Below are positions 13,903-49,488 of a stretch of DNA of 64,000 nucleotides, piece by piece (position 1 is the stretch's first letter; every line of letters starts with the position of its first letter). This DNA is from Cellulomonas sp. P24. GTDB lineage: Bacteria; Actinomycetota; Actinomycetes; Actinomycetales; Cellulomonadaceae. Location of the stretch: contig NZ_JAJDFX010000002.1 in NCBI RefSeq assembly GCF_024704385.1, positions 1,426,001 through 1,490,000 of the forward strand. The letters are read 5' to 3'. Made by a program: the position numbers and the translations under genes. Under the pieces are notes generated by a model. That model ran no database searches. It had not been told where the DNA came from and saw only the letters and a list, made by a program, of their open reading frames with translations.

Positions 13903-14778
13903 TCAGACCCGCTCGGCCGCTTCCACCACGTTGGCGAGCAGCATCGCCCGGGTCATCGGCCCCACCCCGCCGGGGTTCGGGGACAGCCAGCCCGCGACCT
14001 CGGCCACGCCCGGATCGACGTCCCCGGCGAGCCGGGTCTTGCCGGTCACCGGGTCGACGACGCGCGTGACGCCGACGTCGAGCACGACCGCACCCGGCTT
14101 GACCAGGTCCGCCGTGACGATCCCCGGCACGCCCGCCGCCGCCACGATGATGTCGGCGTAGCGCGCGTGCTCGGCGAGGTCGGCCGTGCCGGTGTGGGTG
14201 AGCGTCACCGTGGCGTTGTGCTCACGGCGGGTCAGCAGGAGCCCGATGGACCGACCGACCGTGGTCCCCCGGCCGATCACCAGGACGTCCGCGCCCGCGA
14301 GCGCCACACCGTGCCGCGTCAGCAGCTCGATGATCCCGCGGGGGGTGCACGGCAACGGCGAGTCGATCGGGCCGTTCACGCGGAGCACGAGCCGCCCGAG
14401 GTTGGTCGGGTGCAGGCCGTCGGCGTCCTTCGCCGGGTCGATCAGCTCGAGGACGCGCTGGGTGTCGATCCCGCCCGGCAGCGGCAGCTGCACGATGTAC
14501 CCCGTGCACGCGGGGTCCGCGTTGAGCTGCTCCACGGCCGCCTCGACGTCCGCCTGGCTCGCATCGGCCGGCAGGTCGACGCGGATCGAGGCGATGCCGA
14601 CCTCGGCGCAGTCCCGGTGCTTGCCCGCGACGTACGCGCGGCTCCCGGGGTCGTCGCCGACGAGGATCGTCCCGAGGCCCGGCACGACGCCGCGGGCGGC
14701 CAGGGCCGTCACCCGCTCGGTGAGCTCCGCCTTGATCGCGGCGGCGGTCGCCGTCCCGTCGAGGACCCGAGCCGTCAC
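13903..14778 (-). CDS. folD: Bifunctional methylenetetrahydrofolate dehydrogenase/cyclohydrolase
   Basis: Interconverts 5,10-methylene-THF, methenyl-THF and 10-formyl-THF with NADP, supplying the formyl donor for PurN and PurH. It has 291 residues. Seen: [10 protein letters not shown] with the catalytic Lys, the QLPLP loop, the dinucleotide loop [16 protein letters not shown], and the C-terminal [14 protein letters not shown] signature. GTG 14778 overlaps the glyA stop in the GTGA arrangement, so glyA and folD are translationally coupled under the ZTP riboswitch upstream of glyA. Confidence 0.97.
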
Positions 14779-16055
14779 TGCTGCAGCCCGGCGTAGAGCG
14801 GGAAGTCCGCGGCGAGCTTCGCCACCCGCACGCGGAGCGCGTCGACGTCGGCGCCGCCCTTGAGGGCGGTGGCGATGACGTCGGCGACCTCGGTGAACTC
14901 CGCGTCGCCGAACCCGCGCGTCGCGAGCGCCGGGGTGCCGATCCGCAGACCGGACGTCACGCGCGGCGGGCGCGGGTCGAACGGCACCGCGTTGCGGTTC
15001 ACGGTGATGCCGACGGAGTGCAGGAGGTCCTCGGCCTGCTGACCGTCGAGGTCGCTGTTCCGAAGGTCCACGAGCACGAGGTGCACGTCGGTGCCACCGG
15101 TCAGCACGGAGACACCGGCACCTGCGACGTCCGGGGCGCTCAGACGCTCGGCGATCAGGCGCGCGCCGTCGATCGTGCGCTGCTGGCGCTCACGGAACTC
15201 CTGCGTCGCGGCGACCTTGAAGGACACGGCCTTGGCGGCGATGACGTGCATGAGCGGCCCGCCCTGCTGGCCCGGGAACACCGCCGAGTCGATCTTCTTG
15301 GCGAGCTCCTCGCGGGAGAGGATGAAGCCCGACCGCGGGCCGCCGATGGTCTTGTGGACGGTCGAGGACACCACGTCGGCATGCGGCACGGGGCTCGGGT
15401 GCAGGCCCGCGGCCACCAGGCCCGCGAAGTGCGCCATGTCCACCCACAGCTTCGCGCCGACCTCGTCGGCGATCGAGCGGAACGCCGCGAAGTCCAGGTG
15501 ACGGCTGTACGCGGACCAGCCGCCGATGATCACGTCGGGGCGCTGCTCGAGCGCCTTCTCGCGGACCTTGTCCATGTCCACCAGGAACGTGTCCGGGTCG
15601 ACGCCGTACGCGGCGACCTCGTACAGCTTCCCGGAGAAGTTGATCTTCATGCCGTGGGTCAGGTGCCCGCCGTGCGCGAGCTCGAGGCCGAGGATCTTGT
15701 CGCCCGCGTTGATGAGCGCGTGCAGCACCGCCGCGTTCGCCGTCGCGCCGGAGTGCGGCTGGACGTTGGCGTGCTCGGCACCGAAGAGGGACTTCGCGCG
15801 GCTGATCGCGAGGTTCTCGGCGATGTCGACCTGCTCGCAGCCGCCGTAGTACCGCTTGCCGGGGTAGCCCTCGGCGTACTTGTTGGTCAGCACCGAGCCC
15901 TGCGCCTGCAGGACGGCTCGCGGCACGAAGTTCTCGCTCGCGATCATCTCGAGGGTGCTCTGCTGACGCAGCAGCTCGCCGTCGAGGACCGCCTGGATCT
16001 CGGGATCGAGCTCGGCGAGGGTCTGGTCGAGGATCGGGGTGGAGTCGGAGCTCAT
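14775..16055 (-). CDS. glyA: Serine hydroxymethyltransferase
   Basis: PLP enzyme: serine plus THF gives glycine plus 5,10-methylene-THF, the main one-carbon entry. It has 426 residues from ATG 16055, with AAGGAG before it. The family starts with [12 protein letters not shown]. The PLP Lys sits at about residue 235 in [13 protein letters not shown], and [21 protein letters not shown] and [13 protein letters not shown] are all present. The open frame runs upstream to 16094 but that part has no homology-like sequence. The leader (16056 to about 16240) holds a ZTP riboswitch, so expression is predicted to rise when 10-formyl-THF is short and ZMP/ZTP accumulates. folD follows with a 4-bp overlap. 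Confidence 0.97.
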
Positions 16056-16123
16056 GGTTCTCCTTGCAGACAGCGGTGGTCGGTTGACGTCCACGAGGGA
16101 CTGGCGGGCGACCCGGCGGATGA

Positions 16124-16157
16124 CCGGGTTCGCGCACCACGAGGTGCGGTGACCCGG
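16124..16157 (-). promoter_or_regulatory. Expression-platform hairpin of the glyA riboswitch
   Basis: On the minus strand CCGGGT pairs with ACCCGG (16152-16157 with 16124-16129), and inside it CGCACC pairs with GGTGCG (16143-16148 with 16133-16138). The hairpin begins one base after the conserved GCCTGGGC pseudoknot strand of the riboswitch. It is the likely regulated terminator or antiterminator element; the mechanism is inferred. Confidence 0.5.
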
Positions 16158-16236
16158 GGCCCAGGCGTACGACCCGTCGTCGGCTGCTGCTCGTCGCTCC
16201 CCGGTGGTGACCCACCCTTTCGCCAGTCGCGACGCG
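16156..16236 (-). promoter_or_regulatory. ZTP (pfl) riboswitch upstream of glyA-folD
   Basis: Read on the minus strand from about 16236: CGTCGCGACTGGCG, a short loop, GGTGGGTCACCACC, then GGGGAGCGACG, a variable hairpin (ACGAC-GG-GTCGT), then GCCTGGGC at 16166-16159. These match the pfl/ZTP riboswitch core in order: G(T/C)GACTGGCG, a GGTGG...CCACC stem, CGGGGAGCG, and the GCCTGGG pseudoknot strand. CGTCG and CGACG close the first domain. Known biology: the aptamer binds the AICAR nucleotides ZMP/ZTP, which build up when 10-formyl-THF is scarce. glyA and folD are typical targets. Confidence 0.93.
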
Positions 16237-16277
16237 CACAGCCTACCAAGGGGACAGGTCGGGGCAAGGGGCGACGA

Positions 16278-26398: not shown

Positions 26399-28030
<1,632 letters not shown>

Positions 28031-28043
28031 GCGGGTGACCTCC

Positions 28044-28079
28044 CGGGTCGTTGCGGTCTCGTGAGACTTCATGGACCCG
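28044..28079 (-). promoter_or_regulatory. Expression-platform stem of the purH riboswitch
   Basis: On the minus strand CGGGTC (28079-28074) can pair with GACCCG (28049-28044), enclosing a GTCTC-GAGAC hairpin (28056-28067). The downstream arm abuts the ribosome-binding site GGAGG, so control of translation start is plausible. Inferred from pairing only. Confidence 0.45.
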
Positions 28080-28080
28080 A

Positions 28081-28163
28081 GCACCCAGGCGAACGGTGCA
28101 CCGGCGGGGACTTCCGGCCGCTCCCCGGTGGTTCGGTCCACCTCAGGTACGCCAGTCACGGCC
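28081..28163 (-). promoter_or_regulatory. ZTP (pfl) riboswitch upstream of purH
   Basis: Read on the minus strand from 28163: GGCCGTGACTGGCG, a loop, GGTGG-ACCGAA-CCACC, then GGGGAGCGGCC, a variable part with a CGGT-GC-ACCG hairpin, then CGCCTGGGTGC ending at 28081. These are the conserved pfl/ZTP elements in order, with GGCCG and CGGCC as the closing helix. Direct comparison with the glyA leader shows the same GTGACTGGCG / CCACCGGGGAGCG / GCCTGGG blocks with different covarying stems. Ligand (ZMP/ZTP) is established for the class; here ZMP is also the PurH substrate. Confidence 0.94.
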
Positions 28164-28224
28164 AGGGGTAGTTTAGCGGGGCGCCGGGACTCCCGGCACC
28201 CCCCGACGAGCACCGAGGACTGAC

Positions 28225-29448
28225 ATGACGGCATGGATCGACCAGCCCAGCCACCACGCCTGGCTCGAGGCCGAGTCGCAACGCCTGCTCGCGTTCGGGC
28301 GCCGCTTCCCCGCACCCGACGGCGGGTCCCGCTGGCTCGACGACGACGGCGTGCCCGACCCCGACCGGCCGGTGTTCACCTGGATCTCGGCCCGGATGGC
28401 GCACGTCTACGGCCTCGCGCACCTTCGCGGCACCCCGGGCGCGGGGATCCTCGCAGGCCGCGCGCTTGCCGGGCTCACCGGCCCGCTGCACGACGACGTG
28501 CACGGTGGCTGGTTCGCCTCGGTCGGACCGGACGGTCAGGTGGCGGCCGAGAAGTCCGCATACGCGCACGCGTTCGTGATCCTCGCGGCCTCCACCGGCA
28601 CCGTCGCACACCTGCCCGGCGCGCGCGACCTGCTCGACGACGCCCTGGCGGTCTACCTCGACCGCTTCTGGGACGAGGCCGACGGCCTGGCGCGCGACGG
28701 CTGGGACCGCTCGTGGACGACGCTCGACGAGTACCGGGGGGTCAACGCGAACATGCACTCGGTCGAGGCGATGCTCGCCGCCGGGGACGCGACGGGCGAC
28801 CCGTCCTGGCACGCGCGCGCCCTGCGGATCGTCTCCCGGGTCGTCGACGGGTGGGCGCGTGACAACGACTGGCGGATCCCGGAGCACTTCGACTCGTCGT
28901 GGAGCCCGCTGCTCGAGTACAACGCCGACCGGCCGGACGACCAGTTCAAGCCGTACGGCGCGACGATCGGGCACGGCCTGGAGTGGGCGCGGCTGACGCT
29001 GCACCTGCGCGCTGCCCTGGGTGACGCGGCCCCGACGTGGATGCTCGACGCGGCGGTCGCCCTGTACCGGCGCGCCGTCGCGGACGGCTGGGCGGTCGAC
29101 GGTGCACCGGGTTTCGTCTACACGACGGACTGGTCCGGCACGCCGGTGGTCCGTACCCGCCTGCACTGGGTGCCGGCCGAGGCGATCGGGGCCGCCGCGG
29201 CCCTCTACCTCGCGACCGGCGACGAGGCGTTCGACGCCGACTACCGGCGGTGGTGGGACTACGTCGCCACCGACGTGATCGACCTCGATCGCGGGTCCTG
29301 GCACCACGAGCTCGACACCGACAACCGCCCCGCGGCCACGGTCTGGCCCGGGAAGGCGGACATCTACCACGCCTACCAGGCGACGCTCGTGCCGCGCTCA
29401 CCGCTCGCCCCCGGGCTGGCGCTGGCGCAGCGCGCCGGGGTCGTCTGA
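28225..29448 (+). CDS. AGE-family epimerase/isomerase
   Basis: A 407-residue protein with the (alpha/alpha)6-barrel pattern of N-acylglucosamine 2-epimerases and related aldose-ketose isomerases (mannose isomerase, YihS). Seen: [15 protein letters not shown] near the start, [22 protein letters not shown] with the His expected in the active site, [22 protein letters not shown], and [24 protein letters not shown] near the end. It presumably interconverts a free hexose; which one cannot be told. It starts 195 bp from the divergent purH, whose leader occupies most of that gap. Confidence 0.86.
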
Positions 29449-40896: not shown

Positions 40897-41247
40897 TCAG
40901 CTCCACAGCACCGCGAGGCAGACGTTCACGACCACGAGGCCGGCGATCGCCCCGAGGAATCGCGTGGTGACCTTCGCGGGCTCACGGGTCCCGACGATGA
41001 CGAGCGCCGTGACGACGATCGCGATGACCAGCTTGATGCCGAACTTCGCCATGACGAGCTTGGGGTCGCTCGGGTACACCGAGTCGTGCATCCCGACCAT
41101 CGCGATGCCGGTGACCAGGGCGGTGAGGATCCCATGGAGCACACCGGGCGCGATGCGCGGGGACTTCATCGACACCAGGGTGCCACCGAGCACGATGGCC
41201 CAGCCGAGCAGGTGCAGGACGAGAAGGATGCCGTAGACGATGGTCAT
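40897..41247 (-). CDS. Small four-helix integral membrane protein
   Basis: A 116-residue protein with four hydrophobic segments: ILLVLHLLGWAIVLGGTL, ILTALVTGIAMVGM, GIKLVIAIVVTALVIVG and LGAIAGLVVVNVCLAVLW. His12 in the first helix and HDSVYPSDP in the loop are the only notable polar sites. I recognise no named family with confidence; similar proteins are common in actinobacteria as uncharacterised integral membrane proteins. ATG 41247. It is divergent from the sulfur operon, with 136 bp to the leader peptide start. Confidence 0.8.
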   Translation of the reverse strand: MTIVYGILLVLHLLGWAIVLGGTLVSMKSPRIAPGVLHGILTALVTGIAMVGMHDSVYPSDPKLVMAKFGIKLVIAIVVTALVIVGTREPAKVTTRFLGAIAGLVVVNVCLAVLWS

Positions 41248-41348
41248 GCGCCCACCCTAGGTCACGTGCTGACATCTTGTCGCAAACCTGCCGTCAGCCC
41301 GATGCGCGCCCGGCTGGACACCGCGCCATCCCAAGGAGCGGGCACGCA

Positions 41349-41377
41349 TGGACATCAGGTGAGACGCCACCTAGCCT
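41349..41377 (+). promoter_or_regulatory. Promoter of the sulfur assimilation operon
   Basis: TGGACA (41349-41354), 17 bases, TAGCCT (41372-41377). The GTG of the leader peptide follows 6 bases after the -10 hexamer, where transcription would be expected to begin, so the leader message is probably leaderless. Confidence 0.65.
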
Positions 41378-41383
41378 CGTCGC

Positions 41384-41458
41384 GTGACGTACCGACTGAG
41401 CGCCGCCCGCGCCCGCACCACGACCGCCTCGGCGCGTCGTGCGTGTTGTTGTCGTTGA
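41384..41458 (+). CDS. Polycysteine leader peptide of the sulfur operon (attenuator)
   Basis: A 24-codon reading frame, VTYRLSAARAR then TTTASARRACCCR and TGA, with three consecutive Cys codons (TGT TGT TGT at 41444-41452) just before the last Arg. GTG 41384 lies 6 nt after a -10 hexamer, with no room for a ribosome-binding site. Leaderless short frames with Cys runs upstream of sulfur genes act as cysteine-responsive attenuators in mycobacteria. Here the first gene of the operon begins 380 bp downstream. Ribosome stalling at the Cys codons when cysteinyl-tRNA is low would favour expression of the sulfate-reduction genes. Function inferred from sequence and context. Confidence 0.82.
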   Translation: MTYRLSAARARTTTASARRACCCR

Positions 41459-41838
41459 CCGTCGCGTGACGCGGTCCGCCTCAGCGCCTCGTCGCTGAGC
41501 GCAGGACACCCCGCCACCACCCGAGGTACCGCCCCGGCCGTCTCGTCGCCGACGACCTCCTGCGCGCACGCAACCAGCTGAGCCCGCGCGCGACGTCGGC
41601 CACGCCCACCGCGGCCGGTCGCCACGCTGGTCCGCGCCCGTCCGGCCCCTCGGTGATCTGCGCGGACCCGGCTCCTGCCTCGGTCCCCGCACGCCCCTCG
41701 CGTCACGTGCCCGCCGCCGGCACGCCCTCGCCCCTGCGCCGGTCCCGCGCACCGGGACCTGCTCACCTCGCCCCCACCCGCCCCGGCACGTCCGCCCGCA
41801 CACGTCCGCCCCGATCCCCGGAGGAACCGAGCACCGCC
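41459..41838 (+). promoter_or_regulatory. 380-bp leader of the sulfur operon (attenuation region)
   Basis: No gene seen on either strand beyond shadow frames. It contains stem-loops CTCAGCG-N6-CGCTGAG (41480-41499, 21 bp past the leader stop) and GGTCCCG-N5-CGGGACC (41741-41759). Long C-rich, G-poor runs (for example around 41505-41530 and 41760-41790) would suit Rho loading. This is where premature termination, relieved by stalling on the Cys codons, should occur. Structure inferred by eye. Confidence 0.5.
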
Positions 41839-43590
41839 ATGACGCCTACCCGAGCCACGCCCGCCAGCACCCTCACCTCGACAGACGCTCCCGCCGCCGC
41901 GGTGCCCGCACGTCCGCGCACCACCCGGTCGAACGGCCAGTGGGCCGTCGACGGTCGCACCCCGCTCAACGCGAGCGAGGAGATGAAGGCCGAGGACAAC
42001 GGCCTGAACGTGCGCGAGCGCATCGAGCGCGTCTACGCGGTCCAGGGCTTCGACTCGATCGCCGACGACGACCTGCACGGGCGCTTCCGCTGGTGGGGCC
42101 TGTACACGCAGCGCAAGCCCGGGATCGACGGCGGACGGACCGCGACGCTCGAGCCGCACGAGCTCGAGGACCGCTACTTCATGCTCCGGGTGCGGGTGGA
42201 CGGCGGCGCACTGACGACCGAGCAGCTCCGGACGATCGGCGGGATCTCGACCGCGTTCGCCCGCGACACCGCCGACATCACCGACCGGCACAACATCCAG
42301 CTGCACTGGGTCCGCATCGAGGACGTCCCCGAGATCTGGCGGCGGCTCGAGCACGTCGGGCTGAGCACGACCGAGGCGTGCGGCGACGTCCCGCGCGTGA
42401 TCCTCGGCAGCCCGGTCGCCGGCATCGCGGCCGACGAGATCATCGACCCGACCCGCGCGATCCAGGAGATCGCCCGGCGGTACATCGGCGACCCCGAGCT
42501 CGCGAACCTGCCGCGCAAGTTCAAGACCGCGATCACCGGGCACCCGAGCCAGGACGTCGTGCACGAGATCAACGACGTCGCGTTCGTCGCGACCGTGCAC
42601 CCGGACCTCGGCGCCGGGTTCGACCTGTGGGTCGGCGGCGGGCTCAGCACGAACCCCCGCCTCGGTGAGCGCCTCGGCGCGTTCGTGTCCGAGGAGCTGG
42701 TCCCGCAGGTCTGGGTCGCGGTCACCTCGCTCTTCCGTGACTACGGCTACCGCCGACTGCGCACCAAGGCCCGGCTGAAGTTCCTGCTCGCGGACTGGGG
42801 TCCGCAGGAGCTCCGGCGCGTCCTGCAGGACGAGTACCTCGGCTTCGCGCTGCCCGACGGACCACCGCCTCCGCAGCCGACCCGCTCCGGCGACCACGTC
42901 GGCGTGCACCGCCAGAAGGACGGCCGGTACTACGTCGGCGCCGCACCGTACGTCGGGCGGGTGTCCGGATCCGCACTGACCGGTGTGGCCGACCTCGCCG
43001 ACGCCGCCGGGGCGCACCGGGTCCGCCTCACGCCGTACCAGAAGCTGCTCGTGCTCGACGTCCCCGAGGACCACGTCGACGCCGTCGTGTCCGGTCTGCG
43101 CACGCACGGCCTCGAGACCGACCCGAGCCCGTTCCGACGGGCGACGATCGCGTGCACGGGCATCGAGTTCTGCAAGCTGGCGATCGTCGAGACCAAGGCC
43201 ACGGCCGCCCGCGCGATCGACTCGCTCGAGGAGCGCCTCGGCGACCTCGGCGACCTGACCCCCATCCGGCTGCACGTCAACGGCTGCCCCAACTCGTGCG
43301 CCCGGATCCAGACCGCGGACATCGGCCTCAAGGGTCAGCTCGTCCTCGACGACGACGGCACCCAGGTCCCCGGCTACCAGGTGCACCTCGGTGGCGGTCT
43401 CGCGTCGGCCGACCGTGAGGAGGCCGGGCTCGGCCGCACCGTGCGCGGGCTCAAGGTCACGGCCGACGGCGTCCCCGAGTACGTCGAACGCGTCGTGCGC
43501 CGGTACGTCGCCGAGCGCGAGACGGGCGCGGACGGACCCGAGTCGTTCGCCGTCTGGGCACACCGCGCGGACGAGGAGGCGCTGCGATGA
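41839..43590 (+). CDS. Ferredoxin-type sulfite reductase (nitrite/sulfite reductase family)
   Basis: Siroheme/4Fe-4S enzyme, 583 residues, reducing sulfite to sulfide with six electrons. Two ferredoxin-like half domains alternate with catalytic halves. The cluster-siroheme cysteines are all present: Cys439 and Cys445 (CTGIEFC), Cys483 and Cys487 (NGCPNSC). An N-terminal Ala/Thr/Pro-rich stretch of about 35 residues precedes the core. Sulfite rather than nitrite is inferred because cysH, cysD and cysN follow directly. ATG 41839 is preceded by GGAGGA. The stop overlaps the cysH start (ATGA). Transcription is led by the Cys attenuator. Confidence 0.93.
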   Translation: MTPTRATPASTLTSTDAPAAAVPARPRTTRSNGQWAVDGRTPLNASEEMKAEDNGLNVRERIERVYAVQGFDSIADDDLHGRFRWWGLYTQRKPGIDGGRTATLEPHELEDRYFMLRVRVDGGALTTEQLRTIGGISTAFARDTADITDRHNIQLHWVRIEDVPEIWRRLEHVGLSTTEACGDVPRVILGSPVAGIAADEIIDPTRAIQEIARRYIGDPELANLPRKFKTAITGHPSQDVVHEINDVAFVATVHPDLGAGFDLWVGGGLSTNPRLGERLGAFVSEELVPQVWVAVTSLFRDYGYRRLRTKARLKFLLADWGPQELRRVLQDEYLGFALPDGPPPPQPTRSGDHVGVHRQKDGRYYVGAAPYVGRVSGSALTGVADLADAAGAHRVRLTPYQKLLVLDVPEDHVDAVVSGLRTHGLETDPSPFRRATIACTGIEFCKLAIVETKATAARAIDSLEERLGDLGDLTPIRLHVNGCPNSCARIQTADIGLKGQLVLDDDGTQVPGYQVHLGGGLASADREEAGLGRTVRGLKVTADGVPEYVERVVRRYVAERETGADGPESFAVWAHRADEEALR

Positions 43591-44399
43591 GCACCCCGAC
43601 GACGCCACGCACCTCGGCGCTCCCCGGTCTCCGGGTCGCGCCGACCGCCGCGACCACCTCCACACCGACGGTGCAGGTCACTCGCCGGCCGCGTCGCACC
43701 GCGGACGAGCTCCGGGCCGTCGTCGAGGAGGCCGCTCCCCGGCTCGCCGACGCCGGCGCGCAGGGCGTGGCAGCGTGGGCTGTGCAGGAGTTCGGCGGGT
43801 GGCTCGCGGTCGCGTGCTCGATGGCCGACGCCGTCCTGCCTCACCTGGTCGCTCAGGCGGGCCTGGCCGCCGGCGTCGCGCCGGTCGACGTGCTGTTCCT
43901 CGACACCGGCTACCACTTCGCCGAGACGCTCGCGACGCGGGACCTCGTCGCGGCGCGGCTGCCGGTCCGGGTCGTCGACGTCACGCCCCGGCTCAGCGTC
44001 GCCGAGCAGGACGCCGCGCACGGCGTCGACCTGTACGCCCGGGACCCGGGCGCGTGCTGCCGGATGCGCAAGGTCGAGCCGCTCACGGAGCAGCTCGCCG
44101 GCTACGAGGCGTGGGTGACCGGCGTGCGACGCGAGGAAGCACCGACGCGTGCCGGGACGCCCGTCGTCACGTGGGACGCGGCGCACGGGCTCGTGAAGAT
44201 CAACCCCCTCGCGGCGTGGACCTTCGACGAGCTGCTCGCGTACGCGGCCGAGCACGAGGTCCCGCTCAACCCGTTGCTGGACGACGGGTACCCGTCGATC
44301 GGCTGCCGCCCGTGCACCAGCCGCGTCGCCCCCGGAGCAGACCCCCGGTCCGGCCGTTGGGCCGGGCTGGCCAAGACCGAATGCGGGATCCACCCATGA
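43587..44399 (+). CDS. cysH: Adenylyl-sulfate (APS) reductase, 4Fe-4S type
   Basis: Reduces activated sulfate to sulfite with thioredoxin. The 270-residue PP-loop protein has the paired cysteines Cys157-Cys158 (GACCRMRK) and Cys240/Cys243 (GCRPC), which ligate a 4Fe-4S cluster and mark the APS-using class, plus the catalytic Cys266 in the C-terminal KTECGIHP. FLDTGYHFAET is the nucleotide-binding segment. The absence of an APS kinase gene in the operon agrees with APS as substrate. It overlaps its neighbours by 4 bp on both sides. Confidence 0.95.
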   Translation: MSTPTTPRTSALPGLRVAPTAATTSTPTVQVTRRPRRTADELRAVVEEAAPRLADAGAQGVAAWAVQEFGGWLAVACSMADAVLPHLVAQAGLAAGVAPVDVLFLDTGYHFAETLATRDLVAARLPVRVVDVTPRLSVAEQDAAHGVDLYARDPGACCRMRKVEPLTEQLAGYEAWVTGVRREEAPTRAGTPVVTWDAAHGLVKINPLAAWTFDELLAYAAEHEVPLNPLLDDGYPSIGCRPCTSRVAPGADPRSGRWAGLAKTECGIHP

Positions 44400-45394
44400 C
44401 CACCACCGACGCACCGACGACCCCCCGCGACCACGCGGGCGCCGGCAGGCAGCCGGGCACCGGCGACGAGCTCGGGCCGACCGCGACGAGTACCGCACCA
44501 CGCGAACGCCGCCTGACGCAGCTCCAGGCGCTCGAGAGCGAGTCCGTGCACATCATCCGCGAGGTCGTCGCGGAGTTCGAGCGACCCGTGCTGCTGTTCA
44601 GCGGCGGCAAGGACTCCGTCGTGATGCTGCACCTCGCGGTCAAGGCGTTCTGGCCGGGACCGGTGCCGTTCCCGGTGCTGCACGTCGACACCGGGCACAA
44701 CTTCCCCGAGGTCCTCGCGTTCCGGGACGCGACGGTCGAACGCCTCGGGCTGCGCCTCGAGGTCGTCCGCGTGCAGGACTACCTGGACGACGGACGACTG
44801 CGTGAGCGGGCGGACGGGACGCGCAACCAGCTCCAGACGATCCCGCTGCTCGACGCCGTCTCACGTCACGACGCGGTGTTCGGGGGTGGGCGCCGGGACG
44901 AGGAGAAGGCGCGCGCCAAGGAGCGCGTCTACAGCCTGCGTGACGAGTTCGGGCAGTGGGATCCGCGTAACCAGCGGCCCGAGCTGTGGAACCTCTACAA
45001 CGGTCGGCACCGGCCGGGTGAGCACGTCCGCGTCTTCCCGCTGAGCAACTGGACCGAGCTCGACGTGTGGCGCTACGTCGCGGTCGAGCAGATCGCGCTG
45101 CCACCGCTGTACTACGCGCACGACCGCGAGGTCTTCTCCCGCGACGGCATGTGGCTCGCCGTCGGGCCGCACTCGATGCCTCGCGCAGGCGAGGTCCCGA
45201 CGACGCGCCGGGTGCGCTACCGGACCGTCGGTGACGCGTCGTGCACGGGCGCCGTCGAGAGCGACGCCGTCCACGTGGACGACGTCGTGCGGGAGATCGC
45301 GGCCACCCGGATCACCGAGCGAGGCGCCACCCGGGCCGACGACCGCGCGTCGGAGGCCGCCATGGAGGACCGCAAGAAGGAGGGGTACTTCTGA
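44396..45394 (+). CDS. cysD: Sulfate adenylyltransferase, small subunit
   Basis: Makes APS from ATP and sulfate, with CysN driving the reaction by GTP hydrolysis. It has 332 residues. The PP-loop SGGKDS is at about 69-74 (RPVLLFSGGKDSVVML), followed by HVDTGHNFPEVL, the GGRRDEEKARAKER loop, and the C-terminal DRASEAAMEDRKKEGYF ending typical of CysD. ATG 44396 overlaps the cysH stop, and its own stop overlaps the cysN ATG (TGATG). Confidence 0.97.
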   Translation: MTTTDAPTTPRDHAGAGRQPGTGDELGPTATSTAPRERRLTQLQALESESVHIIREVVAEFERPVLLFSGGKDSVVMLHLAVKAFWPGPVPFPVLHVDTGHNFPEVLAFRDATVERLGLRLEVVRVQDYLDDGRLRERADGTRNQLQTIPLLDAVSRHDAVFGGGRRDEEKARAKERVYSLRDEFGQWDPRNQRPELWNLYNGRHRPGEHVRVFPLSNWTELDVWRYVAVEQIALPPLYYAHDREVFSRDGMWLAVGPHSMPRAGEVPTTRRVRYRTVGDASCTGAVESDAVHVDDVVREIAATRITERGATRADDRASEAAMEDRKKEGYF

Positions 45395-46701
45395 TGAGCA
45401 CGCTGCTGCGACTGGCCACGGCCGGTTCCGTGGACGACGGCAAGTCCACCCTCGTGGGCCGTCTCCTGTACGACTCCAGGTCGGTGCTGACCGACCAGCT
45501 CGACGCGGTCGAGCGTGTGAGCCGTGACCGCGGGCTCGAGCAGACCGACCTCGCGCTGCTGACCGACGGCCTGCGCGCCGAGCGCGAGCAGGGCATCACG
45601 ATCGACGTCGCGTACCGGTACTTCGCGACGGCCCGACGCTCGTTCATCCTCGCCGACTGCCCCGGTCACGTGCAGTACACCCGGAACACCGTGACCGGGG
45701 CGAGCACCGCGGACGCCGTCGTGCTGCTCGTCGACGCGCGCAAGGGGCTCCTCGAGCAGACGCGGCGGCACCTGGCCGTCGCGAGCCTGCTGCGGGTGCC
45801 GCACGTGGTCGTCGCGGTGAACAAGATCGACCTGGTCGACTTCGACGAGGCCACCTACCTCGCGCTCGCGGCGCAGGTCGGTGCGGCCGCGACCGACCTC
45901 GGGCTCGCCGACGTGCGGACCCTGCCGGTCTCGGCCCTCGCCGGGGACAACGTCGTGGACCGGTCCGGCCGCACCCCCTGGTACGGCGGGCCGAGCCTGC
46001 TCGAGCTGCTCGAGGAGCTCCCGGCCGGCGACGACCCGTCCGCGGAGGCGTTCCGGTTCCCGGTGCAGGTCGTCCTGCGTCCGCAGGGTGCCGCGCGCGA
46101 CGCACGCCACCGTGACTACCGCGGGTACGCCGGGCAGATCGCGGCAGGCGTCGTCACGGTCGGCGACGCGGTGATCGCCCTGCCGTCCGGGCGTCGCAGC
46201 ACCGTCGTCGGGATCGACACCGCTGACGGCGAGCTCGCCGAGGCGTTCGCGCCGCAGTCGGTGGCCCTCCGGCTCGCCGACGACATCGACCTCGCGCGGG
46301 GCGACCTGCTCGCGGCCGTCGCCGACGCCCCGGTCCCGACGCGGGAGCTCGCGGCCACGATCGCCTGGTTGTCCGACCGCACGCTGCTCCCGGGCACACG
46401 CGTGCTGCTCAAGCACACGACCCGCACGGTCCAGGCGGTGGTGCGCGACGTCGTCGGGCGCCTCGACCTCGATTCGGCCGAGATCGTCCCGGCCGAGCAG
46501 CTCGGGCTGAACGACATCGGGCAGGTGCAGCTGCGGCTCGCCTCGCCCGTGGTGGCCGAGGAGTACGTCGACGCGCGGCGCACCGGCGCGTTCCTGCTGA
46601 TCGACCCGCACGACGGCGCGACGCTCGCGGCCGGGATGGTGGGCGAGCCGCTCGCGGAGGCGCGGTGTCCCGGACGCCGCCCCGCCCAGTACGCGATCTG
46701 A
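45394..46701 (+). CDS. cysN: Sulfate adenylyltransferase, GTPase subunit
   Basis: EF-Tu-like GTPase of ATP sulfurylase, 435 residues. G1 GSVDDGKST is at 11-19, G3 DCPGH at 88-92, G4 NKID at 143-146, followed by two beta-barrel domains. No APS kinase (CysC) domain is fused at the C-terminus, so this organism appears to feed APS directly to CysH. ATG 45394 shares one base with the cysD stop. A 36-bp gap leads to the sulfonate-type ABC genes. Confidence 0.97.
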   Translation: MSTLLRLATAGSVDDGKSTLVGRLLYDSRSVLTDQLDAVERVSRDRGLEQTDLALLTDGLRAEREQGITIDVAYRYFATARRSFILADCPGHVQYTRNTVTGASTADAVVLLVDARKGLLEQTRRHLAVASLLRVPHVVVAVNKIDLVDFDEATYLALAAQVGAAATDLGLADVRTLPVSALAGDNVVDRSGRTPWYGGPSLLELLEELPAGDDPSAEAFRFPVQVVLRPQGAARDARHRDYRGYAGQIAAGVVTVGDAVIALPSGRRSTVVGIDTADGELAEAFAPQSVALRLADDIDLARGDLLAAVADAPVPTRELAATIAWLSDRTLLPGTRVLLKHTTRTVQAVVRDVVGRLDLDSAEIVPAEQLGLNDIGQVQLRLASPVVAEEYVDARRTGAFLLIDPHDGATLAAGMVGEPLAEARCPGRRPAQYAI

Positions 46702-46737: not shown

Positions 46738-47517
46738 ATGACGACGACCCTGATCGACGACGCCGCCCGTCTGCGCACGACGCCCGCGGTCCGGCTGCAC
46801 CAGGTGGGCAAGCGGTTCTCCGCCCACGGGACCGCTGCCGTGGACCGTGTCGACCTGACGATCGCACCCGGTGAGTTCGTGTGCCTCGTGGGCGCGTCCG
46901 GGTGCGGGAAGACGACGTTGCTGCACCTCGTCGCCGGGATCGAGACGCCGACGTCGGGCACCGTCGAGGTCGCGGGTGCAGGTGTCGGGACGGGGGCAGC
47001 CGTGATGTTCCAGGACGCGGCCCTGTACCCGTGGCTCTCGGCGCGCGGCAACGTCGAGCTCGCGCTGCGCCTGGGCGGCGTGGCGCGGCGCGAGCGGCGT
47101 GCGCGCGCCGAGGACCTGCTCCGGCTGGTGCATCTCGGGGAGCGCGGCGAGTCGGCCGTGCACGAGCTCTCCGGCGGGATGCGTCAGCGGGTCGCGCTCG
47201 CGCGGGCCCTCGCCCAGGACCGCGAGGTGCTCCTCATGGACGAGCCGTTCGCGGCGCTCGACGCGATCACTCGCGACCTGCTGCACGACGAGCTCGAGCG
47301 GGTCTGGCGTGCGACCGGGCGCACGGTTGTGCTCATCACCCACGATGTGCGCGAGGCCGTGCGTCTGGGGCAGCGCGTCCTGCTGATGGCGGGCCGGCCG
47401 GGGCGGGTCGTGCACGAGTGGCAGGTCGAGGATCGTCGTGAGCCGGTGGCCGCCGCCGCCCTCGCGGCCACGATCACCGACCGGTTGCGCGAGGAGATGC
47501 ACCGCGATGCCCGCTGA
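46738..47517 (+). CDS. Sulfonate/nitrate-type ABC transporter ATP-binding protein
   Basis: A 259-residue ATPase of the SsuB/TauB class. Walker A GASGCGKTT is at about 52-60, the Q loop in MFQDAALYPWL, the signature LSGGMRQ at about 144-150, Walker B LLMDEP at about 165-170, and the switch His in LITHDVREAV. Its place in the sulfur operon suggests uptake of sulfonates or a similar sulfur source. The permease gene starts inside its 3' end (11-bp overlap). No substrate-binding protein gene is present in the cluster, which is unusual for this transporter class. Confidence 0.9.
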   Translation: MTTTLIDDAARLRTTPAVRLHQVGKRFSAHGTAAVDRVDLTIAPGEFVCLVGASGCGKTTLLHLVAGIETPTSGTVEVAGAGVGTGAAVMFQDAALYPWLSARGNVELALRLGGVARRERRARAEDLLRLVHLGERGESAVHELSGGMRQRVALARALAQDREVLLMDEPFAALDAITRDLLHDELERVWRATGRTVVLITHDVREAVRLGQRVLLMAGRPGRVVHEWQVEDRREPVAAAALAATITDRLREEMHRDAR

Positions 47518-48190
47518 CCACTCCCTGCTGACCGCGCTCGCGACCAGCCTCGGGCGCGGCGTCGTCGGGTTCGTGCTCGCCGTCGCGATCGGCACGCCGA
47601 TCGGGATCGCGGTGGCACGCGTGCGCTGGGTCCGGACCGCGCTCGGGCCGCTCCTGAAGGCCCTTCAGGTGCTGCCGTCCGTGGCGTGGGTCCCGGCTGC
47701 GGTGCTCTGGTTCGGGCTCACCGACGCGACGGTGTACTTCGTGGTGCTCGTGGGGTCCGTCCCGTCCGTCGTGACCGGCCTGGTGACCGGCATCGACCAG
47801 GTACCGGCGTGGTACCGGCGCGTGGGCACCGTGCTCGGCGCCGGACCGCTCGCGATGACCCAGCACGTGATCCTGCCGGCGGCCCTCCCCGCGTACGTCT
47901 CCGGGCTCCGGCAGAGCTGGGCGTTCGCGTGGCGGTCGCTGATGGGCGCCGAGCTGATCGCCGGTGGCGACCGTCTCGGCTTCGGGCTCGGTTCGCTGCT
48001 CCACGACGGCCGGGTGCGGGACGACCTCCGCACGGTGCTCGTCGCGATGCTCCTGATCCTCGCGGTCGGCGTCGTGGCGGAGCTCGCCGGCTTCGCGCCG
48101 CTCGAGCAGCGCCTCGCACGCCGCCGCGGTCTCGTCACCGAGGTGGCCCGGCGACCGCGCCGCGGGCTCGCTCCGGAGCTGGCCCGGTGA
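47507..48190 (+). CDS. Sulfonate-type ABC transporter permease, short N-terminus
   Basis: A 227-residue BPD-type permease (SsuC/TauC class). The EAA-like loop region is visible (AMTQHVILPAALPAYVSGLR, then WAFAWRSLMGAELIAG), with about five hydrophobic segments including SLGRGVVGFVLAVAIGTPIG. Compared with typical members it begins at what is usually the second membrane segment: the first helix and the PSP-containing loop are missing, and the upstream frame (to 47438) is not hydrophobic. ATG 47507 overlaps the ATPase by 11 bp; the stop overlaps the next gene (GTGA). Possibly functional, possibly a 5'-deleted gene together with the missing binding protein. Confidence 0.82.
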   Translation: MPADHSLLTALATSLGRGVVGFVLAVAIGTPIGIAVARVRWVRTALGPLLKALQVLPSVAWVPAAVLWFGLTDATVYFVVLVGSVPSVVTGLVTGIDQVPAWYRRVGTVLGAGPLAMTQHVILPAALPAYVSGLRQSWAFAWRSLMGAELIAGGDRLGFGLGSLLHDGRVRDDLRTVLVAMLLILAVGVVAELAGFAPLEQRLARRRGLVTEVARRPRRGLAPELAR

Positions 48191-49488
48191 ACGCGTCGCA
48201 GGTGAGTGGGCCCACCGGGCGGTCGGCTGGGCAGCCGGGCGGGTTCGACCACCCGGACTACCCACTGACGCTGCGGGTCGCCGGTCGCCGCGTTCTCGTC
48301 GTGGGCGGCGGTCCGGTGGCTGAGCGACGGGTTCGCGGGCTCCTCGACGCCGAGGCCGACGTGCACGTGGTCGCCCCCGAGGTGACTCCCGGTCTCGGTG
48401 CGCTCGCAGCAGCGGGCCGGCTGACCTGGCGTGATCGCGTGTACCGCGACGGCGACCTCGCCGACGCGTGGCTCGTGCACACCGCAACCGGCTCGCGCAC
48501 GGTCGACGAGCGCGTCGCGGCCGACGCGGAGGTCGCACAGGTGTGGTGCGTCCGCACCGGCGACCCTGCGGCCTCGGCGGCGTGGGTTCCCGCGGTGACC
48601 CGCGTCGACGACGTCCTCGTCGCGGTCAACGCCGGCGGCGACCCACGCCGTGCGATGCGGCTCCGGGACGCCGTCACGACGCTGCTGCGCTCCGGGCGCC
48701 TGCCGCTCCGGCGCCACCGACCGGGCCCGGGTTCTGTCGCGCTGGTCGGGGGCGGCCCCGGCGACCCCGGTCTGCTCACGGTCCGCGGGCGAACCCTGCT
48801 CGCCGAGGCGGACGTCGTGGTCGTCGATCGCCTCGCGCCCCGAGCGGTGCTCGCCGAGCTCGACCCCGACGTCCTCGTGGTCGACGTCGGCAAGTCACCC
48901 GGTCACCACCCGGTCCCGCAGGACGACATCAACGCGCTGCTCGTCGAGCACGCGCGGGCCGGACGCCGAGTAGTACGACTCAAGGGTGGCGATCCGTACG
49001 TCTTCGGCCGCGGCTCCGAGGAGGCCTCCGTACTACGGGAGGCCGGGATCCCGGTCGAGGTCGTCCCCGGTGTCACGAGCGCGGTCTCGGTCCCGGCAGC
49101 CGCCGGTATCCCGGTCACCCACCGGGGTCTGTCGCGCGGGTTCAGCGTCCTGACCAGCCACGACGAGCTGCACACGCTCCCGCCCACCGAGCAGCACACG
49201 ATCGTGCTGCTCATGGGCGTGAGCCGGCTCGCAGAGAGCTGTGACGCCCTCGTCGCGGGCGGTCGCTCGCCGCACACCCCGGTGGCCGTCGTCGAGGACG
49301 GCTACGGTCCCGGCCAGCGCGTCACCACTGGAACGCTGGCGACGATCGCGGCCCGGGCGACGGAGGTCGGCGTACGGTCACCGGCCGTGACGGTGATCGG
49401 CGACGTCGTGCGGCTCTCACCGGCGTGGGGCGTTCCCGCGACCGGTGTCACCCCAGCGCGACCAGGCGTCCCCCTGGCGTCGTGGTGA
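48187..49488 (+). CDS. cysG: Siroheme synthase: precorrin-2 dehydrogenase domain fused to uroporphyrinogen-III C-methyltransferase
   Basis: Makes the siroheme needed by the sulfite reductase at the head of the operon. It has 433 residues. An N-terminal NAD-binding domain (VLVVGGGPVAERRVRGLL, about 36-53) resembles CysG-B/Met8. A C-terminal SAM-dependent methyltransferase from about residue 185 has VALVGGGPGDPGLLT, VVRLKGGDPYVFGRGSEE and the [21 protein letters not shown] region. The linker is shorter than in enterobacterial CysG, and the N-terminal domain is quite diverged, so ferrochelatase activity is uncertain. GTG 48187 overlaps the permease stop. The 3' end overlaps a convergent gene by 41 bp. 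Confidence 0.92.
   Translation: MNASQVSGPTGRSAGQPGGFDHPDYPLTLRVAGRRVLVVGGGPVAERRVRGLLDAEADVHVVAPEVTPGLGALAAAGRLTWRDRVYRDGDLADAWLVHTATGSRTVDERVAADAEVAQVWCVRTGDPAASAAWVPAVTRVDDVLVAVNAGGDPRRAMRLRDAVTTLLRSGRLPLRRHRPGPGSVALVGGGPGDPGLLTVRGRTLLAEADVVVVDRLAPRAVLAELDPDVLVVDVGKSPGHHPVPQDDINALLVEHARAGRRVVRLKGGDPYVFGRGSEEASVLREAGIPVEVVPGVTSAVSVPAAAGIPVTHRGLSRGFSVLTSHDELHTLPPTEQHTIVLLMGVSRLAESCDALVAGGRSPHTPVAVVEDGYGPGQRVTTGTLATIAARATEVGVRSPAVTVIGDVVRLSPAWGVPATGVTPARPGVPLASW

Follow-up and report, generated by a model that had tools for sequence, protein, structure and literature searches.

A short reading frame that ends in three cysteine codons and begins at a predicted transcription start lies ahead of the sulfate-reduction operon in the window (the whole 64-kb stretch of DNA analysed here), and frames of the same kind stand before the sulfite reductase gene in most loci of the host family. 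From these sequence features, the short frame is very probably a cysteine-sensing leader peptide. The locus as a whole, sensor and response together, is likely to be a cysteine-responsive, ribosome-mediated attenuator.

A leaderless-type frame before the sulfate-reduction operon

The promoter-like elements and the short frame are:

41349..41354, + strand: -35 hexamer TGGACA, read directly; TGGACA stands at the matching place in the congeners L003 and L004
41372..41377, + strand: -10 hexamer TAGCCT, read directly, 6 nt 5' of the GTG
41384..41458, + strand: leaderless-type short frame VTYRLSAARARTTTASARRACCCR*, 24 codons with a GTG start, ending Ala-Cys-Cys-Cys-Arg-stop
41444..41452, + strand: three Cys codons, all TGT, read directly

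Both the TGGACA-N17-TAGCCT pair with a GTG 6 nt later and the 24-codon GTG frame ending Cys-Cys-Cys-Arg-stop (41384-41458), described in a first, sequence-only reading of this DNA, are present where that reading had placed them. The two hexamers are 17 nt apart and TAGCCT is followed by the 6 nt CGTCGC and then by the GTG at 41384, a spacing at which the transcript is predicted to begin with the start codon itself. The block GAGACGCCACCTAGCCTCGTCGC-GTG is identical in the window (L001), L003 and L004, and a short-frame length of 75 nt is common to the window, L003, L004, L085, L086, L112 and L113. A sigma-70 promoter scan returned 0 matches at the locus, its thresholds being stricter than this promoter-like pair. 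In Streptomyces lividans the -10 consensus TANNNT lies a mean of 6.3 nt before the start, and the leader peptides in the accessible part of that report are leaderless, as is predicted here, with TANNNT ~6.3 nt before the start; they differ in being assigned to Leu, Trp, Ala, Ile, Met and Thr, and none to cysteine (PMC8079986).

Four frames of 4-60 codons in the 64-kb window (3 on +, 1 on -) begin 5-8 nt past a TANNNT, and VTYRLSAARARTTTASARRACCCR is the only one of them with Cys-Cys. It is also the only one with three Cys within the last six residues among the 581 + and 624 - short RTG frames of the window, where CCC elsewhere than at the frame end was found in one minus-strand short RTG frame. 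When 41248-41838 was shuffled, a leaderless-like frame with at least three Cys arose in 4 of 3000 shuffles and CCC in 0 of 3000. A divergent 116-aa frame adjoins the promoter at 40897-41247 (-); it is hydrophobic by eye and has no Pfam match.

The genes that follow the short frame are:

41839..43590, + strand: sulfite reductase (NIR_SIR), by Pfam
43587..44399, + strand: cysH (PAPS_reduct), by Pfam, named from gene order and family
44396..45394, + strand: cysD (PAPS_reduct fold), by Pfam scanned from 44399, named from gene order and family
45391..46701, + strand: cysN (GTP_EFTU), by Pfam, named from gene order and family
46738..47517, + strand: ABC transporter ATPase, by Pfam
47438..48190, + strand: ABC transporter permease, by Pfam, start provisional
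48094..49488, + strand: siroheme synthase (NAD_binding_7 plus TP_methylase), by Pfam, start provisional

The Pfam assignments agree with the order first read from the translations, namely sulfite reductase, cysH, cysD, cysN, an ABC pair and siroheme synthase. A sulfate-reduction operon supplies the sulfide for cysteine. The genome holds the operon copy of sulfite reductase plus one weak relative, and the enzyme of the window is 82% identical to its Cellulomonas bogoriensis counterpart.

Conservation, codon usage and folding of the short frame

The host family (Cellulomonadaceae) was sampled with 150 genomes, 115 of which carry a sulfite reductase gene; these gave 117 loci, and the upstream DNA of all 117 was used. 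A leaderless-type frame was defined as one of 4-60 codons with at least three Cys, beginning 5-8 nt past TANNNT (strict rule) or NANNNT (relaxed rule). By the strict rule such a frame precedes sulfite reductase in 78 of the 117 loci, against a shuffle mean of 0.2 (maximum 1 in 15 rounds) and 1/117 on the reverse strand. By the relaxed rule it does so in 100/117 (shuffle mean 7.5, maximum 14; reverse strand 7), of which about 7 are expected by chance, and 17/117 loci have no frame by either rule. Counted by genus, 15/21 have a strict-rule and 18/21 a relaxed-rule frame, some of the relaxed ones possibly being due to chance. Carriers include Cellulomonas bogoriensis, Oerskovia rustica, Sanguibacter, Cellulosimicrobium, Antribacter and Promicromonospora. 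The 82% identity to the C. bogoriensis enzyme and the matching frames place the host of the window among them. Between genera the start codon, the -10 spacing and the Cys cluster are kept and the remaining peptide varies; the clusters at the frame ends of relatives read CCCC, CCCCC, SCCR, CRCC and others, that of the window CCCR-stop. A conserved Cys-rich frame at the predicted transcription start in most family loci is what a cysteine-responsive leaderless attenuator predicts, and it supports the sensor part of the mycobacterial-type attenuator that the sequence-only reading had claimed.

Outside the host family the strict rule found 0 frames among 27 loci of the order (a sample that left out genome G177, whose contig begins at the gene) and 0 among 69 named loci. 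The relaxed rule gave 6/27 order loci (shuffle mean 1.7) and 2/69 named loci (shuffle mean 5.7); three genomes from a single family are among these matches, MAFSPDSCAPMMCCCVRCAMCPEA being an example of their frames. In 5/27 order loci there was a strict-rule frame carrying two Cys. Since the frame is common in the host family and has 0 strict matches outside it, the device tracks the lineage and not the gene.

It is highly improbable that the short frame is an ORF due to chance or a vestige, with a DNA-binding regulator acting at the promoter as the operon's sole control. Chance would yield 0.2 family loci where 78/117 were found, and it would not be expected with a covarying hairpin inside the frame and a codon bias confined to Cys (both below), although the lack of strict matches among the 69 named and 27 order loci fits such an origin, as do the GTGACG repeats or leaderless gene start seen by eye in many of 28 outside loci and a Cys run that is down to one Cys in the second gene copy L112.

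L112 and L113 are second sulfite reductase copies of G062 and G047, each with its own leader; in L112 the run has been reduced to one Cys (AWCRR), and in L113 it reads AWCCR. In Sanguibacter suaedae, a leaderless-like Cys-rich frame, MNGSKVPSIVCECRCRHA, lies on the opposite strand near the operon (L015:2754, -). By eye, a conserved GTGACGAAATNTTTCCCTAGGTGAC-like element stands upstream of sulfite reductase in L021, L029, L030, L034, L037, L042 and L059, and repeated GTGACG half-sites do so in Microbacterium-like loci; judging by sequence, either may possibly be the site of a DNA-binding regulator that replaces the leader peptide. In another family of the order (L232-L234) a Cys-rich frame (..CCCVRCAMCPEA / ..RVCCAMCLSA) is found ~220 nt before sulfite reductase; it may be an independent Cys leader. 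Arthrobacter-like loci also hold very short Cys frames, which were dropped, as the region carries conserved elements of another kind.

In the mycobacterial kind of device, several operons per genome share it. In the present genome, 0 leaderless-type frames with at least two Cys were found in 31 loci with flanks of ~1.5 kb, these being the surroundings of 6 PF00291, 11 PF01053 and 14 PF00266 matches (PLP-enzyme genes), and there was no clear DNA paralogue.

The Cys codons of the 68 distinct strict-rule frames are 196 TGT and 124 TGC (n = 320), and the other NNY codons of the same frames are 127 with T and 882 with C (n = 1009; third positions 87% G or C), counts that treat related frames as independent, which they are not. 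Sulfite reductase genes, counted in 30 loci, use TGC 153 times and TGT 0 times, and the operon of the window has 2 TGT and 18 TGC. P values for both codon comparisons come out too small for the same reason of relatedness. TGT equals or exceeds TGC in 14 of the 18 genera with a relaxed-rule frame, and is the rarer codon in g5, g10, g20 and g21. The preference may mean either that a wobble-read codon sharpens the gauge or that a U-rich run is wanted for RNA reasons.

A hairpin within the frame was analysed in the sister genera, using every one of the 42 distinct frames, among 67 in all, that start with MTTA, MTKA, MTTT or MTTV. It lies at codons 9-15, with 96.4% of cells paired and both-side changes at 6/8 pairs. 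The number of cells with both-side changes was 20, against a shuffle mean of 3.3, and 0/500 shuffles were as high. When the partner was slid, pairing fell to 52% or less; L109 is one of the 42 frames and lacks the hairpin. Several of the hairpin changes alter the peptide, and RNA structure therefore seems to be the thing kept. For the full set of 67 frames, the best hairpin is modestly stabler than shuffles (mean z -0.93; 17 below -1.5, 0 above 1.5). The hairpin of the window lies nearer the Cys codons than that of the sister genera, which ends ~30-45 nt before the last Cys cluster:

41415..41446, + strand: hairpin inside the short frame, -20.5 kcal/mol, its 3' arm ending in the first Cys codon

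As a hand-picked segment this hairpin has a z of -3.17, and only -1.2 when the best of the frame is set against the best of each shuffle. Counterparts are present in L003, L085, L086 and L113; in L004 it is not the best hairpin.

With the same sensor, the in-frame hairpin and the U-rich UGU codons could together act as an intrinsic terminator that stops polymerase unless a ribosome is close behind. The strong hairpin at 41415-41446 and two overlapping terminator-scan sites at 41430-41448, then T-rich sequence (2 against a shuffle mean of 0.1, sd 0.4), are consistent with this, and a terminator would also account for TGT instead of TGC. Nevertheless, we consider it very unlikely: the U run is interrupted by G, the covarying hairpin of the sister genera does not adjoin the last Cys cluster, and such a device would respond to any loss of translation and not to cysteine. 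The scan, which covered 40900-42100, had no other site than those at 41430-41448 inside the short frame, and found no U-tailed terminator between the leader peptide and the first gene.

The leader and the output step

Between the short frame and the first gene lie:

41459..41838, + strand: non-coding C-rich leader of 380 nt, between the stop codon of the short frame and the ATG of sulfite reductase (41839)
41474..41507, + strand: hairpin directly after the short frame, its sequence largely kept in two congeners (segment z -0.15, conserved but not unusually stable)
41741..41759, + strand: hairpin GGUCCCG-CGCAC-CGGGACC without a U run (z -2.68 as a hand-picked segment)
41820..41825, + strand: Shine-Dalgarno-like GGAGGA, 13 nt 5' of the ATG, read directly

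The 380 nt had been described beforehand as C-rich and without a gene; the length is exact, C makes up 0.51 and G 0.29, and the composition by codon position is not coding-like. In the gene's frame, G+C at codon positions 1/2/3 is 0.79/0.77/0.83 in the leader and 0.73/0.49/0.95 in the gene, and we judge the leader non-coding because of this flat profile. An N-terminal extension of sulfite reductase would draw on the fact that the gene's frame is uninterrupted for 123 codons 5' of the ATG, as far back as ~41470 (a 706-codon open frame). It is scarcely credible, given the flat codon-position G+C, the GGAGGA ahead of the ATG and the lack of alignment with the congener L004 beyond the first 130 nt. 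The leader of L004 is 209 nt long, and 58/74 loci have 130-160 nt. Alignment of the window with L004 is good over only ~130 nt from the GTG, and a further match, seen by eye, covers the final 17 nt that run up to and across the ATG.

The hairpins that had been claimed for this region held in part: two hand-picked segments stand out, but the frame plus leader folds no better than shuffles (z 0.50, no extra stability). Segment 41760-41850 is on the weak side (z 1.07 against shuffles), and the other folded segments are average or stable. Rfam at gathering scores gave no match at 41349-41838. The window's only Rfam matches are two ZMP-ZTP riboswitches at 16152-16240 (-) and 28076-28169 (-), with 65.3 and 56.9 bits; by eye from the translations they precede serine hydroxymethyltransferase-like (14775-16094) and purH-like (26399-28315) frames, an ordinary placement.

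The proposed attenuator would work as follows. RNA polymerase would start at the G of the GTG at 41384, as promoter spacing and conservation suggest, and a ribosome would load directly onto the leaderless 24-codon frame. When Cys-tRNA is plentiful, the ribosome would read the three UGU codons, stop at 41458 and leave; the leader would then fold and the sulfite reductase start would be poorly used. When Cys-tRNA is short, the ribosome would halt on UGU-UGU-UGU and keep the RNA around the stop codon unpaired, whereupon the downstream pairings would be re-sorted and the sulfate-reduction operon expressed. The in-frame hairpin may delay RNA polymerase until the first ribosome catches up, by analogy with the trp and his attenuators, which have pause hairpins.

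Downstream pairing was analysed in an alignment of 28 of 34 sister leaders (L096, L099, L115, L128, L165 and L167 were dropped); the set of 34 omits Promicromonospora-type leaders, L131, L139, L141, L149, L154 and the window's clade. In the aligned leaders, CGCGCC follows the stop codon by 2-3 nt in 26/28, and a GGCGCG-type element does so by about 44-64 nt in 28/28; a complementary stretch then precedes the Shine-Dalgarno. In the helix between the GGCGCG-type element and that stretch, 89.6% of cells are paired and both-side changes number 14 against 6.1; it is the only helix found by RNAalifold in the 28 leaders; the RNAalifold register was chosen after the first result and the test is partly circular, as the structure comes from the same alignment. 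The first-guessed register of this downstream helix had no excess covariation. Over 61 leaders the GGCGCG-type pairing is stabler than shuffles (mean z -1.24; 22/61 below -1.5, 0 above 1.5). A ribosome stalled at the Cys codons would cover the first element, CGCGCC, and this points to the usual attenuator logic: in the sister leaders a halted ribosome would let the second and third elements pair and so leave the start site open.

For the window itself, the three pairings that were tested are no stabler than in shuffles (z -0.1, 0.9 and 1.6, the GGCGCG-type pairing being that at 0.9), and inspection by eye did not reveal the CGCGCC and GGCGCG elements in its clade. With the ribosome footprint masked, the start site of the window (L001) became no easier to open (9.0 to 9.7 kcal/mol). 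The same mask over 74 loci made opening easier in 23 and harder in 21 (changes above 1 kcal/mol), with start codons set by rule and a few of them doubtful (e.g. L003, L129, L140, L171). Start-site pairing over 61 leaders was no better than shuffles (mean z 0.46, 12 above 1.5), and hairpins that would cover the Shine-Dalgarno were seen by eye in L106, L109, L120, L161 and L124. By analogy with what is reported for mycobacteria, release of the ribosome binding site has in our estimate roughly an even chance of being the output.

The same sensor could alternatively control Rho-dependent transcription termination in the C-rich leader, a serious contender that we nonetheless lean against. A ribosome that has finished the frame would leave rut-like RNA bare and Rho would stop the polymerase; a stalled ribosome, or the fold that it favours, would prevent this. 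Only 7 of the 3181 windows of 380 nt in the 64-kb stretch, both strands counted, reach the C-over-G skew of the leader, each of the 7 overlapping the leader itself. Among 78-nt stretches, the leader's most C-over-G one, at 41742, is the window's maximum (tied with 54816), and segment 41760-41850, as noted, folds no better than shuffles. C likewise exceeds G in 85/85 leaders measured, although high C may be general in untranslated leaders of a GC-rich host family. A halted ribosome covers only about 12-15 nt beyond, and one halted at 41444-41452 would cover far less than the C-rich stretch. Rho has been proposed for the cys leaders of Mycobacterium, P. acnes and B. longum, a prediction that the proposing paper itself, in its accessible part, terms rather weak (PMC1262725).

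Relation to known systems and significance

Leaderless polycysteine short ORFs were reportedly tested in mycobacteria by Canestrari et al. 2020 (doi 10.1111/mmi.14498). In the accessible portions of later and earlier reports, the output in M. smegmatis is given as translation attenuation (PMC13236596), ribosome occupancy at the M. smegmatis cysA2 locus was shown in 2015 (PMC4633059), and the 2020 study is cited in both PMC13236596 and PMC9094748. As far as those portions go, the frame described here resembles the mycobacterial short ORFs in being leaderless by prediction, rich in Cys, placed before sulfur or cysteine genes and kept among relatives. It differs in belonging to another order of Actinomycetota, in its 380-nt leader, in preceding a sulfite reductase operon and in having no second locus in the places examined in this genome. 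Within the host family the Cys codons are mostly TGT, and the response to cysteine is a predicted one.

Actinobacterial cys leader peptides were predicted by comparison by Seliverstov et al. 2005 (PMC1262725). In the part of that paper available to us, the candidate cys leader peptides of Mycobacterium, Propionibacterium acnes and Bifidobacterium longum cbs likewise have Cys codons near the stop, and their leaders have no U-tailed terminator and carry a pyrimidine-rich stretch after the frame, as here. Those leaders are described there as having no conserved terminator hairpins, whereas the sister genera of the host family have a covarying in-frame hairpin and, in the aligned leaders, a conserved downstream pairing. 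The uORFC-8-2 motif before cysS in Rhodobacterales is, in the accessible text, similar in its tandem Cys uORF and in the ribosome-mediated attenuation proposed for it; it differs in its dominant UGC, in the U-tailed terminator after it, in having its Cys codons within the first stem and in its gene, cysS (PMC8632094). A literature search, with most subscription journals outside its reach, found no report of the device in the host family. The kind of switch is known, and the present case is a well-supported instance of it in a new lineage, one with many variants that could be aligned; the preference for TGT and the covarying in-frame hairpin are also new.

The present findings take probable leaderless leader peptides for cysteine far outside the mycobacteria, to most of the genera sampled in a further family of actinobacteria. 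The aligned natural variants make the RNA elements that pass on the signal, a question left by the 2005 prediction (in its accessible part; PMC1262725), directly testable, and the TGT bias yields a simple prediction on the sensitivity of the attenuator. We suggest tentatively, and regard as rather unlikely, that the frame is a codon-tuned gauge in which UGU, a codon avoided by the family's sulfite reductase genes, makes ribosomes hesitate early and the covarying in-frame hairpin holds RNA polymerase back. If this were true, hesitation would set in at the first fall of Cys-tRNA, before ordinary proteins suffer, and one frame would be start signal, timer and gauge without a 5' untranslated region.
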